From positions 1-21,097 of the IMG/VR virus record IMGVR_UViG_3300030061_000852: a DNA stretch of 21,097 nucleotides; one strand, written 5' to 3'. A model generated the notes under the pieces. The model was given only the letters and a program-made list of their open reading frames with translations. It searched no databases and was not told the origin of the DNA. The position numbers and the translations under genes are program-made. Below, one piece after another: positions 2,959-21,097 of this stretch. The DNA comes from a virus. Every line of letters begins with the position of its first letter. The stretch's first letter is position 1.

Positions 2959-3900
2959 TTAGTTCACCCTTATACTTAAATCTGCACTACTTGTATAGCC
3001 TACTTTTGGTATAAATGTAGACCTTACATATTCAAATCTATTAACGAGTAGTGTCTGCATATTTTTTATACCCTGCTCAAATCTTTGAAAGTTAAGTTGA
3101 TACTGTGCTGTTTCACCCCTATACTGATACACAAAAGCAGTAGCACCATCAACTATGATTGCTGCGAATCTATCAGGTATTGTAGTTGTATCACTGTGAG
3201 CAGACATATCTGTGGGGAAAGAAAAAAAGTCGTACTTTACACTAAAGCCTTTTGTTGGAAAAGGATATAGTAAAAAATTATTGTCAGGTGTTCTTGCTAC
3301 ATATTGTGGAACACCACCAGATTCAAACTGTGCTACTTGTACTCCACTCGCTATTGAAGCTGCAGTTGTGCTATTTGCACCCCTAGTGCATCCTGTGAAT
3401 GTAGTGCTTGAACCTATTGCAGTATATGTTATCTGCTCATTGCCTATAAACAAAGTGCCTGTAGTAGCAAATCCTGTTGTGCTTGTCACAGTAATTGTTG
3501 TTACACTATCTGTGTGTGTTGTGCTTGTAGTAGTTGTTTGTATTTCATCTTCTTGTGTTATGTAACTATTAACATAATCATTATAATTTATAACATATAA
3601 CCTACCACCACTAGCACCTAAATCTGAATCCTTTACTAATCTAAATGTATTGTAGTCAACAGTTTTTGCAGTTGTAGGTATGGAATACCTTACTGTTCCT
3701 GATACTAATGTTTCTGTTTTTGTTGAATGATTGAAAGGGTATTGAAATTCTTTTTGATTAATATATCTAACAGATTCATTGACTGCGTTTTGAGCCTGAG
3801 TCTGTATGCCTCTAGCACTAGTAAAGTTACTTGAAGTTAATTGAACCTCATTTAATCTAGCTAACACTTTGTTTGTTAAGGATAAGTAACTTTCTGCCAT
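2959..3900 (-). CDS. Tail tubular protein A-like (T7 gp11-type adaptor)
   Basis: This 313-aa protein has an N-terminal helical part (YLSLTNKVLARLNEVQL, then NAVNESVRYINQKEFQYPF) and a C-terminal part with LYPFPTKGFSVKYDFFSFP and a long final helix ending in RFEYVRSTFI. This is the pattern of podovirus tail tubular protein A, which forms a ring under the portal. Residues about 131-188 are a threonine-rich insert that also occurs in the next protein. The ribosome-binding site AGGA lies 6 nt before the ATG, after a rho-independent terminator that separates this gene from the capsid genes. Its transcription must come from terminator read-through or a promoter I cannot see. Confidence 0.77.
   Translation of the reverse strand: MAESYLSLTNKVLARLNEVQLTSSNFTSARGIQTQAQNAVNESVRYINQKEFQYPFNHSTKTETLVSGTVRYSIPTTAKTVDYNTFRLVKDSDLGASGGRLYVINYNDYVNSYITQEDEIQTTTTSTTHTDSVTTITVTSTTGFATTGTLFIGNEQITYTAIGSSTTFTGCTRGANSTTAASIASGVQVAQFESGGVPQYVARTPDNNFLLYPFPTKGFSVKYDFFSFPTDMSAHSDTTTIPDRFAAIIVDGATAFVYQYRGETAQYQLNFQRFEQGIKNMQTLLVNRFEYVRSTFIPKVGYTSSADLSIRVN
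3337..3510 (-). repeat. Shared insert module, copy in tail tubular A-like gene
   Basis: Codons 131-188 encode a Thr/Ser-rich module with TITVTSTTGF, GTLFIGNEQITYT and STTFTGCTRGANSTTAA. It matches, by eye at roughly two thirds identity over its core, the module encoded at 2464-2622 in the next gene. It looks like a surface beta domain inserted into an otherwise T7 gp11-like protein. Confidence 0.75.
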
Positions 3901-14746: not shown

Positions 14747-15013
14747 TCATTGGTAATATGGACTCGCTGTAGAATTAGGGTCTTCTATGCCTTCAACAGC
14801 TAATACTTCAGGTATATAATACTTTAACATATTCTCTATTCCCATCTTTAGTGTTTGTGTGGACATTGCACATCCACTACACGCACCACTTAAAAACACT
14901 GTTACTATACCATCATTAAAAGATTTTAACTCTACGTGTCCACCATGCATTTGAACACTAGGTAATATAGACTCTGTTATTATTTTATTAATTCTTTCCT
15001 CTACGTCAAGCAT
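14747..15013 (-). CDS. NFU-domain Fe-S cluster scaffold or carrier
   Basis: This 88-aa protein is a complete stand-alone NFU domain (NifU C-terminal type). ILPSVQMHGGHVELKSF (16-32) matches the family's HGG/DGG region, and SGACSGCAMSTQTLKMGIE (42-60) carries the CxxC pair C45 and C48 that bridges a 4Fe-4S cluster between two monomers. IPEVLAVEGI completes the domain. The start overlaps the holin stop (TAATG), so it is translated with the lysis genes. In cells NFU proteins carry Fe-S clusters to apoproteins. Here the target could be a host enzyme or a phage protein such as the nearby DUF1289 fusion. The family call is firm; the role in infection is unknown. Confidence 0.92.
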   Translation of the reverse strand: MLDVEERINKIITESILPSVQMHGGHVELKSFNDGIVTVFLSGACSGCAMSTQTLKMGIENMLKYYIPEVLAVEGIEDPNSTASPYYQ

Positions 15014-16824: not shown

Positions 16825-17114
16825 TATCCTCTGTATCCACCACCTGCTTTTTTATAAGCCTTTGCCATCATCTGTGCTTTACGTGCAGACCATTGACCGG
16901 GAGAACCACCCTTGCCACCTGCTTTTATTCTATTGAATATATTCTTACGTAGAGTTGGCTTTGTGTAGTTACCTGCCTTGTTTACTGTGCTACCACCTTT
17001 GTTTAGTTTTATTGTAGACAAAGACTTGGCTTGACCTGCGTGTAGTTTAGATGCTTTCTTTAATCCTTTAACTACCTTTTTTATTGTCTTTTTTGCTTGG
17101 GGTTTTTTTAACAT
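16824..17114 (-). CDS. Small basic protein with PGQWSARKAQ motif
   Basis: I choose the ATG at 17114 (96 aa) because GAGG lies 6 nt before it; the ATG at 17126 is possible. The N-terminus is a Lys-rich helix, followed by NKGGSTVNKAGNYTKPTLRK (38-57) and IKAGGKGGSPGQWSARKAQ (63-81), ending KKAGGGYRG. This combination recurs in small basic proteins of aquatic phages and giant viruses as I remember them, where the function is unknown. It overlaps the upstream gene by 47 bp. Likely nucleic-acid binding. Confidence 0.75.
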   Translation of the reverse strand: MLKKPQAKKTIKKVVKGLKKASKLHAGQAKSLSTIKLNKGGSTVNKAGNYTKPTLRKNIFNRIKAGGKGGSPGQWSARKAQMMAKAYKKAGGGYRG

Positions 17115-17772
17115 CTCTATCCTCATATAGATTGTTGAATGTAGTGAATGGGTCTAGATAAGATTCATGTGCCTCTGCAGAATGTGTCCATTGTGATGGT
17201 GCAAAATCAGGAGCACCTTCTCCTGTAACCCATAGTGCAGGACTTGTGGCTCTTACTCTATTGTTTGGTAAAGCTACAATATTACCTGTCCACTTACCTG
17301 CATCTAACAAATACATTACGTGTGACTGTTTATGTTGTGCAGGGTCATCTGCTATATCATGGTCTGTATAATCTACAGTAAACATATATCTAGCAGTAAA
17401 GAACTCATTAGCTATCTTGCATATCCACGGAGAGGAGCTTACTCTATCCATGACTATAACACTGTGGTTTCTAGATTCGCAATCCCAAGGTTGACACAAA
17501 TGGTCTTCCATTGGCTCTGCCCACTCATCTACAGGTATGTCGGCTACTAATGCTTGTATTGGCATTCTTGCCCACATTGCACCACCATGTACGTTATTCT
17601 CTTCTGTACATCCTGTAAAGACTACCTGAAAACTTAACGACCTATCAGGTATGGTATTAACTGCGAAAGCTAGTGCGTGTAGGTATTCACCATGATAATC
17701 CTGATGATTACAGGTGAACTCCTTACGTACCCAACATTTGAAATGTGGTACGTTACTTATAAGATAGGACAT
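17068..17772 (-). CDS. Conserved marine phage protein of unknown function
   Basis: This 234-aa protein begins MSYLISNVPHFKCWVRKEF, a start I recognise from a protein widespread in cyanophages and pelagic phages. It contains many aromatic, His and Cys residues, a HGEYLHALAFAV helix (28-39), a MWARMPIQALV segment, PWDCESRNHSVIVMD, and NNRVRATSPALW, and ends in a basic, probably disordered tail (KKTPSKKDNKKGS). No membrane segment or catalytic motif is clear. It starts in a TAATG junction with the 43-aa gene. Its late position suggests a virion or assembly role, which is inference. Confidence 0.75.
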   Translation of the reverse strand: MSYLISNVPHFKCWVRKEFTCNHQDYHGEYLHALAFAVNTIPDRSLSFQVVFTGCTEENNVHGGAMWARMPIQALVADIPVDEWAEPMEDHLCQPWDCESRNHSVIVMDRVSSSPWICKIANEFFTARYMFTVDYTDHDIADDPAQHKQSHVMYLLDAGKWTGNIVALPNNRVRATSPALWVTGEGAPDFAPSQWTHSAEAHESYLDPFTTFNNLYEDRDVKKTPSKKDNKKGS

Positions 17773-18921: not shown

Positions 18922-19138
18922 AGCTCGTTTTTATTTTACCTTCTAGGTCTTCTTTACTTTTTATGCACTTATACTTTACAGCTACATAATTCGGCATATG
19001 TTCTGGTAAATCTACTGCTATTTCATAAGCACGTGCTACGCATTCTTTCTTAGTTTCGTATGGTCCGTGTAAATCGGACAGTGTATGGCATATATTTTGT
19101 GTACCAATAAGACATACGAGTACCCATGTCTCAAACAT
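18845..19138 (-). CDS. Small protein with hydrophobic N-terminus, paralogue-like to the 59-aa protein
   Basis: This 97-aa protein begins MFETWVLVCLIGTQNIC, a short hydrophobic segment, followed by HGPYETKKECVARAYEIAV and YVAVKYKCIKS. These features parallel those of the 59-aa protein at 16248-16427. The last 35 residues are polar and overlap the next gene by 77 bp, so they may be poorly constrained. It overlaps the upstream gene by 8 bp. A secreted or membrane-tethered protein with a disulphide is plausible. No lipobox is evident. Function unknown. Confidence 0.62.
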   Translation of the reverse strand: MFETWVLVCLIGTQNICHTLSDLHGPYETKKECVARAYEIAVDLPEHMPNYVAVKYKCIKSKEDLEGKIKTSYDTEKENTQGKSDRLYHQEWRQETH

Positions 19139-19343
19139 CGTCTAACATTCCCTCTGCTTTCATTGCATTCTCTACGTGCTTCAGTGTATATCGGTTGCCA
19201 GTCTTAGATTCTATTGCAGCACGTACATAAAACACGGAACTGTGGGGGATGTGTAGACTATTTAACTTATTATTACGGATAGCATCATAAAATGCTTCTA
19301 ACATATTCTCTGGTGTATATAGTTTTACTGATTTTTTACTCAT
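19131..19343 (-). CDS. First gene of the leftward unit, unknown function
   Basis: From the ATG at 19343 the protein has 70 aa (a TTG lies two codons further upstream). It looks like a small helical domain: YTPENMLEAFYDAIRNNKL, IPHSSVFYVRAAIESKTG, then YTLKHVENAMKAEGML. No Shine-Dalgarno is seen before the ATG; the next ATG at 19304 has only weak GAGA upstream. It is the first gene downstream of a perfect sigma-70 promoter, after a leader of about 140 nt. A small DNA-binding regulator is conceivable from the helical pattern and place, but I do not recognise the family. Confidence 0.6.
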   Translation of the reverse strand: MSKKSVKLYTPENMLEAFYDAIRNNKLNSLHIPHSSVFYVRAAIESKTGNRYTLKHVENAMKAEGMLDDV

Positions 19344-19389
19344 TGTCAAGGACTTTTATTTATGTACGAGAATTATATTCATAATAAAC

Positions 19390-19412
19390 CACTTAATTGT
19401 TACATTTAAGTG
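19390..19412. repeat. Inverted repeat in the leftward leader
   Basis: CACTTAA (19390-19396) and TTAAGTG (19406-19412) are perfect inverted arms around a 9-nt spacer, within the untranslated leader of the leftward transcript. Each arm carries the CACT/AGTG half-site that recurs across this region. Confidence 0.5.
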
Positions 19413-19447
19413 TTTTTATATTAAATGTATTTATATTATATATGTAT

Positions 19448-19473
19448 ACACTTATAGTGTACACTCTCAGTGT
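19448..19473. promoter_or_regulatory. Two adjacent ACACT-N3-AGTGT dyads, candidate operator
   Basis: The dyad ACACT-TAT-AGTGT (19448-19460) is followed without a gap by ACACT-CTC-AGTGT (19461-19473). Both have perfect 5-bp arms. They occupy roughly +9 to +34 of the leftward transcript, directly downstream of the perfect promoter, a common place for a repressor. As RNA they could instead form two small hairpins or one larger one. Confidence 0.6.
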
Positions 19474-19487
19474 GGCTGTTATACATA

Positions 19488-19516
19488 ATTATACCGGTTT
19501 TGCAATAGGTTGTCAA
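19488..19516 (-). promoter_or_regulatory. Perfect sigma-70 promoter for the leftward gene unit
   Basis: The minus strand has TTGACA (19516-19511), a 17-bp spacer and TATAAT (19493-19488), an exact match to the consensus. The start of transcription would be near 19481, leading into the gene at 19343. Confidence 0.9.
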
Positions 19517-19553
19517 TACATATTTTACTATGGCAGTTGTTTGTTAAGTGAGT

Positions 19554-19569
19554 GTGACATTTATGTCAC
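19554..19569. promoter_or_regulatory. Inverted repeat upstream of the leftward promoter
   Basis: GTGACAT and ATGTCAC are perfect 7-bp arms around TT. The site lies about 40-55 bp upstream of the -35 element of the leftward promoter, a position suited to an activator or to a partner of the downstream dyads. Confidence 0.5.
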
Positions 19570-19655
19570 TATATACGTGATATTCGTCAGTTTACTTAGT
19601 GGTTAACACTTGATTTTTCACTTCTGTGTAGATATCCATGCATACTACGCACACC

Positions 19656-19672: not shown

Positions 19673-19922
19673 CACTATCTGCCATTATTTCCTGTTGTTT
19701 TACCTGTTTTTCTTTTAATCATTCTATTTTATAAAAAAATATAGCCTAAAAATAATCTATTTAAATAATATTTAGCTATTATCTAATATAAGTTATTGAT
19801 TTTACTCTATTGTTAAACTGTTTTATTATCAGTTATTCATAATATAATGAAACAAGTATGTATTATTTCAAATAAAGATAAGTTTGTTTAGTTGATGCAT
19901 AAAAAAAAATAATCAATACCTG

Positions 19923-19951
19923 TTGACATTGTTTTTAATATATGTTTTAGT
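19923..19951 (+). promoter_or_regulatory. Promoter for the rightward (early) unit
   Basis: TTGACA (19923-19928) is followed after 17 bp by TTTAGT (19946-19951), a 4 of 6 match to the -10 element. An A-rich tract lies upstream and could act as an UP element. Transcription would start near 19958 and give a leader of under 30 nt before the first plus-strand gene. Confidence 0.6.
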
Positions 19952-19961
19952 TATACAAATA

Positions 19962-19985
19962 AACAACAACAAAGGATAAAATAAA
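19962..19985 (+). repeat. Repeated translation leader before the early genes
   Basis: Each of the four plus-strand genes is preceded by a close variant of AACAACAAAAGGATAAA followed by an A/T-rich spacer and ATG. The other copies end at 20395, 20721 and 20965. The Shine-Dalgarno core is AAAGGAT in all four, whereas late genes mostly use AAGGAG or AAGGAA. The A/C-rich stretch may act as a translation enhancer. Confidence 0.7.
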
Positions 19986-20375
19986 ATGACTGTTAACATA
20001 AAAGATTATTATTCTAATACAGGTATTAAACCAAAATATAATATTAATGGAGAAGAGTTACTTTATAATGATAAAATGAATTTAATTAATTGGAATGGTG
20101 GAATATCACAACAACATAATATCCACGTTTATGGAGTTCATTATATACCTAAAACAAAAAATGAAATAATTAAAATAGCTATTCAAAAAAAGTTATCTAA
20201 TAAAATTGATTCATTTATTAAACAACATGAATATTTATATAACGAATTAAATAAAATTAGAAATTGGAATCAATTCGCAGATTCATTATTAATCAATTTA
20301 AATAAATATGGTAGTTTAACAATTAAACAAATTGAATCTGCAAAAAAAATGATTAATAAATTAAACAATAAATAA
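19986..20375 (+). CDS. First rightward early protein, unknown function
   Basis: This 129-aa protein is rich in Asn, Lys and Ile, reflecting a G+C content near 20%. The C-terminal part (FADSLLINLNKYGSLTIKQ, then SAKKMINKL) resembles a short helical motif (LL-x-YG-x-LT-x-KQ) seen at the ends of various phage early proteins. The N-terminal half has no motif I know. The ATG is placed 9 nt after AAAGGA, and a promoter lies just upstream. A host-takeover or replication accessory role is possible from its place only. Confidence 0.72.
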   Translation: MTVNIKDYYSNTGIKPKYNINGEELLYNDKMNLINWNGGISQQHNIHVYGVHYIPKTKNEIIKIAIQKKLSNKIDSFIKQHEYLYNELNKIRNWNQFADSLLINLNKYGSLTIKQIESAKKMINKLNNK

Positions 20376-20395
20376 CAACAAAAGGATTTAATACA

Positions 20396-20629
20396 ATGAA
20401 TTATTTTAATAATTATACTAATGCGTTAGATTATGCATTTAATCATATTGCTGACAATCATGTAATTAAAAATGATAATTTCCATAGTCAAGTAACATTT
20501 ACAAAAAAACCTAGTTTAAATAATACTAATATATTAACCTTAGATTTATTAGATGATAATTATAAATTACATATACAAGTTTTTAGAATGTCATTAAATA
20601 CTTTTGAATTAAATTATTATATTGGATAA
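20396..20629 (+). CDS. Early protein, unknown function
   Basis: This 77-aa protein follows the first early gene by 20 bp, almost all of it the repeated leader. It starts with an aromatic and Asn-rich segment (MNYFNNYTNALDYAFNHIA), and the second half looks beta-rich (ILTLDLLDDNYKLHIQVFRM, FELNYYIG). It is small, soluble and without Cys or membrane segments. I do not recognise it. The shared leader and base composition support it as a real gene. Confidence 0.65.
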   Translation: MNYFNNYTNALDYAFNHIADNHVIKNDNFHSQVTFTKKPSLNNTNILTLDLLDDNYKLHIQVFRMSLNTFELNYYIG

Positions 20630-20633
20630 AAAC

Positions 20634-20689
20634 TTTTAATACTCTTATGTTACAGGATATAAAAAACCTGTAACATGGGAGTTTTAAAA
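20634..20689 (+). promoter_or_regulatory. Long hairpin between early genes
   Basis: The arm ACTCTTATGTTACAGG (20641-20656) pairs with CCTGTAACATGGGAGT (20667-20682) over 16 positions, with two G-U pairs in RNA, around a 10-nt A-rich loop. After one mismatch six more pairs (TTTTAA with TTAAAA) extend it to 23 positions. No T run follows on the plus strand, so it is not a classic terminator there. An RNase III processing site or mRNA stabiliser fits better. Confidence 0.72.
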
Positions 20690-20721
20690 ACTCATAACAA
20701 CAACATAAAGGATAAAAAACA

Positions 20722-20919
20722 ATGTTAAACATTTTAATAAACATAGCTAAAATATTAATAATATTCTCTTATTTAATAGTAGGTTTATATATTATAGATA
20801 TGACTGAAACACGTTTTGAATACATGACATATATTGATTATGTTATTTGTTCTATTGGAACGGTCTTTATTATTGCGTCAATGCTAACTTTACATTTTTT
20901 TACTTGCATTAATAAATAA
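20722..20919 (+). CDS. Small early membrane protein with two membrane helices
   Basis: This 65-aa protein has two hydrophobic helices, about 3-25 (NILINIAKILIIFSYLIVGLY) and 40-60 (VICSIGTVFIIASMLTLHFF), separated by a short polar loop with acidic and basic residues. The shared leader with AAAGGAT precedes its ATG. Small two-helix proteins among early phage genes can alter the host membrane, act in superinfection exclusion or be antiholins, but no motif decides this. It follows a large hairpin. Confidence 0.7.
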   Translation: MLNILINIAKILIIFSYLIVGLYIIDMTETRFEYMTYIDYVICSIGTVFIIASMLTLHFFTCINK

Positions 20920-20965
20920 TATACTTTAATAATTAATTATATAACTAACAAAAGGATAAAATAAA

Positions 20966-21097
20966 ATGCATACAGTATTTAAAGCACAATTAAAAAACGC
21001 AAATTTAAAATTAAAAGAGTATTATAATAATGATGAATTGATTAAACAATGCAGGATATACGCAAGAGAAAAAATAAACAATGCATTAAATAAAGAT
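20966..21097 (+). CDS. Early protein, N-terminal 44 codons (cut by window edge)
   Basis: The frame starts at an ATG preceded by the same leader as the other early genes and stays open to the window edge. The visible part begins MHTVFKAQLKNANLKLKEYY and continues as a charged helical sequence. No family can be named from this piece. Confidence 0.68.
   Translation, partial: MHTVFKAQLKNANLKLKEYYNNDELIKQCRIYAREKINNALNKD

Follow-up and report, generated by a model that had tools for sequence, protein, structure and literature searches.

A conserved array of short dyads at the late promoter of HMO-2011-type phages

Just downstream of a strong late promoter, a phage genome fragment carries four short dyads in two abutting pairs, and in its relatives several dyad copies lie at the same promoter beyond chance and at a conserved position relative to it. 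On the strength of this promoter-anchored conservation, we consider it likely that the dyads are operators at which a phage protein represses or times a late promoter served by host RNA polymerase. An initial annotation of this DNA had envisaged a repressor acting from sites on both sides of the promoter; the conserved array upholds the operator part of that proposal, and the two-sided layout was not borne out.

The window denotes the whole stretch analyzed, 21,097 nucleotides of IMG/VR record IMGVR_UViG_3300030061_000852. Judging by its sequence, the window is part of the genome of an HMO-2011-type podovirus, and its large terminase shares 78% identity with that of HMO-2011 and 77–84% with those of CRP-1 and CRP-345. 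HMO-2011-type phages have been described as a dominant, widespread marine viral group (PMC9038755). The late promoter is directed into a long leftward operon whose genes are of structural, packaging, and lysis type, and the opposite side consists of very AT-rich rightward genes. This early side (19700–21097) has ~19% GC vs ~38% in the late operon; since independent relatives show the same jump (L085, L086, L088–L090, L128, L130, and L150; absent in others, at 28–35%), an assembly chimera is unlikely. No phage RNA polymerase is found among the annotated genes of HMO-2011 or CRP-345, and late transcription is therefore presumably carried out by the host enzyme. Positions 17068–17772 and 14747–15013 hold probable auxiliary genes; one product is a member of a PHROG family labeled ferredoxin, and the other, of 88 aa, appears from its sequence to resemble the NifU C-terminal domain.

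Half-sites and dyads in the window

AGTG or CACT starts 12 times inside 19390–19622. The initial annotation had reported these 12 copies in 233 bp as exceeding what base composition predicts, and its count and positions proved right: mononucleotide shuffles of the interval contain 1.15 copies, and dinucleotide shuffles, the significance check it had proposed, contain 2.56 on average (sd 1.4, maximum 9), with 0 of 5000 reaching 12. Elsewhere in the window the densest 233-bp stretch has 6 copies, and AGTG/CACT is the most over-represented 4-mer pair of 19350–19640. Because the pair is depleted over the whole window (139 observed vs 196 expected), the excess is a local feature. Only half of the 12 copies make up the real feature, i.e., four short dyads in two abutting pairs.

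The perfect leftward promoter described at the outset is real: TTGACA-N17-TATAAT on the minus strand (19488–19516) matches the consensus at 12/12 positions, read from 19516 to 19488, and would place the transcription start near 19481. All four dyads lie downstream on the same strand. The first, CACTGAGAGTG (19462–19472), spans about +10 to +20 from this putative start, and the second, CACTATAAGTG (19449–19459), follows at a distance of 13 bp, at about +23 to +33. The second pair opens with CACTTAAATG (19403–19412; about +70 to +79), which has the clade consensus form and the highest motif score in the window, and closes 13 bp further on with CAATTAAGTG (19390–19399; about +83 to +92). The dyads claimed earlier need one correction, in that the wide CACTTAA...TTAAGTG dyad is not a unit of its own: judged against relatives, it is made of the outer halves of the abutting CATTTAAGTG (19403–19412) and CACTTAATTG (19390–19399).

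Conservation across relatives and clades

We fetched 80 loci with the first gene of the late operon, a homologue of HMO-2011 gp71 (19131–19349, minus strand; 72 aa as a TTG ORF, or 70 aa with the ATG at 19343 as start), and their sequences upstream of this gene were compared. In clade A, which includes the window, TTGACA-N16-18-TATAAT/C was present in 34/34 dereplicated relatives. An expectation-maximization motif search seeded with CACTTAAGTG gave the clade A motif CAYTTAARTG, which had 110 sites across 32 dereplicated sequences. As we had chosen this seed ourselves, we tested independently by counting the strict pattern against shuffled sequence: across 37 dereplicated relatives, the strict dyad was observed 91 times downstream of −10 vs 0.6 expected, and 3 times upstream of −35 vs 1.0 expected. 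The search for the same dyads in relatives, as suggested initially, was thus positive, and a spacing of 12–13 bp recurs in both clade A (39/78 neighbor distances) and clade C. The strict pattern is not universal, 13 of the 37 clade A representatives having one strict site or none, and several representatives poor in strict sites have variant repeats at the same place.

The distribution of 91 vs 3 leaves relatives with dyads only downstream of −10, against the proposal of sites on both sides. The upstream AGTG/CACT copies of the window (19547–19622) were rejected as array members, there being no dyad enrichment upstream in relatives and the copies lying in or beside other conserved boxes, within which AGTG itself is often not conserved. 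One of these elements is a separate palindrome, GTGACATTTATGTCAC (GTGACA...TGTCAC; 19554–19569), ~40 bp upstream of −35, which touches the half-sites at 19551 and 19567 and has related GTTGCATAAATGTCAC and GTTGCATAAATATCAC forms in relatives. Another, also outside the array, is the conserved box GTGGTTAAC (19599–19607; GTTAACCAC on the minus strand), found in 32/34 clade A and 13/27 clade C regions, with AGT attached (AGTGTTAACCAC) in 21 and 1 of these regions, respectively; this box may serve another regulator, act as an early promoter, or mark an origin. An inverted TGGTTWAC follows GTTAACCAC in 8 clade C cases, and in 33/34 clade A regions the box has an ACACAGA motif nearby. With the upstream half-sites assigned to unrelated elements, the two-sided claim lacks its basis.

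Measured from −35, the clade A pairs recur at ~42–46/55–59 and 89–93/102–106 bases. The distance from the first to the second pair is about 47 bp in most relatives and about 60 in the window; the helical phase between pairs is therefore not kept, and looping gains no special support. Asymmetric clade A sites are strongly oriented (40 as CACTTAAATG, 2 in reverse), and the dyad center can be N2 or N3 inside one genome. In six close relatives, which are not independent and whose figures are descriptive, the outer CA/TG positions are 92% identical to the window, the spacers 75%, and the promoter hexamers 100% conserved. Dyads in close relatives survive changes of center length while the leader sequence drifts. 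Specifically, in L090 and L113 the first dyad reads CACTTAAGTG, its N3 center having become N2 and the site one base shorter with the dyad kept, and the fourth reads CACTTTAAGTG.

Cultured phages share the arrangement. Ahead of gp71, HMO-2011 carries the late promoter of the window together with CACTTAAGTG/CACTTAAATG sites clustered at 53216–53340; one further CACTTAAGTG lies elsewhere, at 22568. CRP-1 and CRP-345, which infect roseobacters, also have promoter and array. Across 10 long relative contigs, CACTTAARTG was found at the late promoter only or was absent. Overall, the conserved array sits at one locus, or at two in clade C. No such array was seen in the stretches examined of pelagiphages HTVC103P and HTVC104P, nor in CRP-3 and HTVC033P by an exact 4-bp-arm scan, a weak scan that misses most clade A arrays, including those of HMO-2011 and the window.

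In clades B and C, promoter and layout are kept and the dyad letters differ from clade A. Clade B (CRP-2, CRP-603, and related loci; 69 regions) has TAGTTAAACTA- and AACATTAATGTT-type dyads; in L179–L258 of this clade a second promoter, TTGACA...TATACT, also appears to be present and to hold a dyad within the spacer. Clade C (CRP-9, CRP-13, and related loci; 65 regions) has TACT-N3-AGTA, observed 63 times vs 2.1 expected, with no dyad of any kind above 12 in its shuffles, and the commonest neighbor distances are 12 bp (17 cases) and 13 bp (20 cases; 37 together). Genomes of clade C (L338–L349) repeat this dyad in a second array ~4–5 kb away on the early side, downstream of another promoter-like site; the CRP-13 record (L378) provides isolate confirmation at 3430–3524. 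This second array lies mostly upstream of a 66–70 aa acidic protein, near a tRNA-like sequence. A swap of dyads between clades gained no support, the L096/L101/L109 subclade being without the exact clade B dyad, contrary to expectation.

FZCC0023 is the listed host of CRP-1 (clade A), CRP-2 (clade B), and CRP-9 and CRP-13 (clade C), i.e., of phages with three dyad types, and HMO-2011, a SAR116 phage with another host, has the type A dyad of CRP-1. Dyad type thus follows phage clade rather than host, which makes it probable that the reader of the dyads is encoded by the phage, as the initial annotation had supposed.

Modes of action and candidate reader

Under the operator reading, a phage-encoded DNA-binding protein would bind the tandem sites at 19390–19472 and thereby control the one strong promoter from which host RNA polymerase would transcribe the late operon, with its structural, packaging, and lysis genes. 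With dyad pairs in the first ~90 transcribed bases, the bound protein could block open-complex formation, promoter escape, or early elongation: at +10 to +33 it would collide with promoter-bound RNA polymerase, and at +70 to +92 it may form a roadblock or raise occupancy. Given these positions, repression is the simplest reading; moreover, with no phage RNA polymerase annotated, a consensus promoter ought to be active immediately if nothing held it back. Late expression could then be timed by relief of repression, whether the protein is lost, outcompeted by another regulator, or diluted as the DNA replicates, and in integrase-bearing members the array could also silence late genes in the lysogen. 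As a counterpoint, N2 and N3 centers in one genome would be unusual for a rigid dimer. Nor does a symmetric dimer require the 40 vs 2 orientation bias, which common descent and duplication could explain.

Alternatively, the dyads may act in the transcript, as hairpins or single-stranded motifs bound by an antiterminator, a translational regulator, or a stability factor. Every site lies in the putative leader, the strong orientation bias keeps this reading open, the leader in the window is somewhat more stably folded than its shuffled versions (z −2.1), and the regions ahead of the first gene are clearly structured in clades B (mean z −3.7, in a pyrimidine-rich stretch) and C (−2.9). However, 63/86 clade A sites are unable to form even a 4-bp stem, clade A folding is near background (mean z −1.2), and conserved stems formed by the repeats were not found in this clade. 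Neither a tRNA nor an Rfam RNA match was found in the region, and dyad symmetry together with 12–13 bp spacing fits duplex DNA better, so that we regard a role in the transcript as unlikely.

We give somewhat less credence still to operators that serve an activator instead of a repressor, or a host regulator. Activation is common at late promoters, and in GIL01 the P3 promoter depends on phage gp6, while host LexA and gp7 together repress it (PMC6182141). Against an activator, the sites are downstream of the start, a poor place for activation, and the promoter already matches the consensus at 12/12 positions; against a host regulator, dyad type does not follow the host. An iteron-like replication origin for a phage initiator, with an adjoining AT-rich unwinding region, is very unlikely: tandem spaced repeats do adjoin the ~19% GC stretch and cumulative GC skew turns nearby, but across relatives the promoter −10 sets the position of the sites, which are confined to its downstream side, the second clade C array sits at another promoter-like site, and a junction of divergent operons predicts a skew turn equally well. 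Least probable are arm-type or excisionase sites belonging to a phage attachment site, even though HMO-2011-type subgroups I and III mostly have an integrase and CRP-3 integrates at tRNA-Met (PMC9038755, PMC6918029), and excisionases, e.g., 186 Apl, recognize repeats that are about one turn apart, besides acting as promoter regulators (PMC7498355), because array presence is not tied to integrase (clade C lacks the HMO-2011 integrase homologue and keeps the array; CRP-3 has an integrase and no such array in weak scans) and the spacing is 12–13 rather than 10–11 bp.

Within the operator reading, the gp71 family is a weak candidate for the reader and, on our own estimate, rather improbable. In nearly all members it is a close neighbor of the array, and all clade A–C genomes examined have it. 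The 72-aa protein is predicted to form a three-helix domain (pLDDT 88.6 using 51 sequences; 63 in a first model), for which no significant PDB match was found, TEA-domain matches falling below significance; the matches were limited to distant viral homologues lacking any known function, and Pfam and PHROGs gave no useful family. No DNA-binding or HTH Pfam domain was found in the 20 HMO-2011 proteins tested. Three observations led us to reject this protein as the certain regulator: L160 and L163 have other small genes between array and gene; distant homologues occur in CRP-3 and CRP-212, where no array is visible; and in L109 the protein is 83% identical with nearly unchanged helices, yet the CACT dyads are lost and replaced by ACT-N3-AGT/TAGTTAAAC-like dyads.

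Known systems and significance

Operator arrays are a known kind of element. In lac- and lambda-type control, several dyads overlap or lie just downstream of a strong promoter; compared with such multi-operator control, the units here are shorter and closer, and there is no recognized repressor gene. The tandem LexA boxes of GIL01 P3 are likewise dyad operators that restrain a late promoter, in a phage relying on host RNA polymerase (PMC6182141); those boxes lie inside the promoter and bind host LexA plus gp7, whereas the array here is downstream of the start, has another sequence, and is apparently read by a phage factor. Operators and stoperators of Cluster A mycobacteriophages resemble the array in their diverse specificities among related phages and in having oriented asymmetric sites within transcribed DNA (PMC9283540, PMC6550527). 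They are scattered over the whole genome, in contrast to the array, for which a genome-wide distribution of this kind was not found, the clusters being at one locus, or two in clade C. The operators of 186 Apl, a small, cooperative phage protein acting between divergent promoters, also comprise multiple adjacent sites (PMC7498355), although as direct repeats one turn apart rather than dyads 12–13 bp apart. We found no description of this array in the papers searched, which include few subscription journals, nor one of late-gene timing in HMO-2011-type phages, three of whose main papers never use the word “promoter”.

For HMO-2011-type phages, the array gives a concrete switch site plus a consensus per clade, and phages with different operator types on one cultured host strain make specificity and cross-talk directly testable. 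More speculatively, and with considerable doubt, the array may be the readout of an undescribed, fast-diversifying late-gene switch, in which a protein of unknown fold, possibly of the gp71 family or a clade-specific early protein, would read a clade-specific dyad code and phages sharing a host would keep separate late control. If true, this code would keep late control non-cross-reacting, similar to immunity groups.
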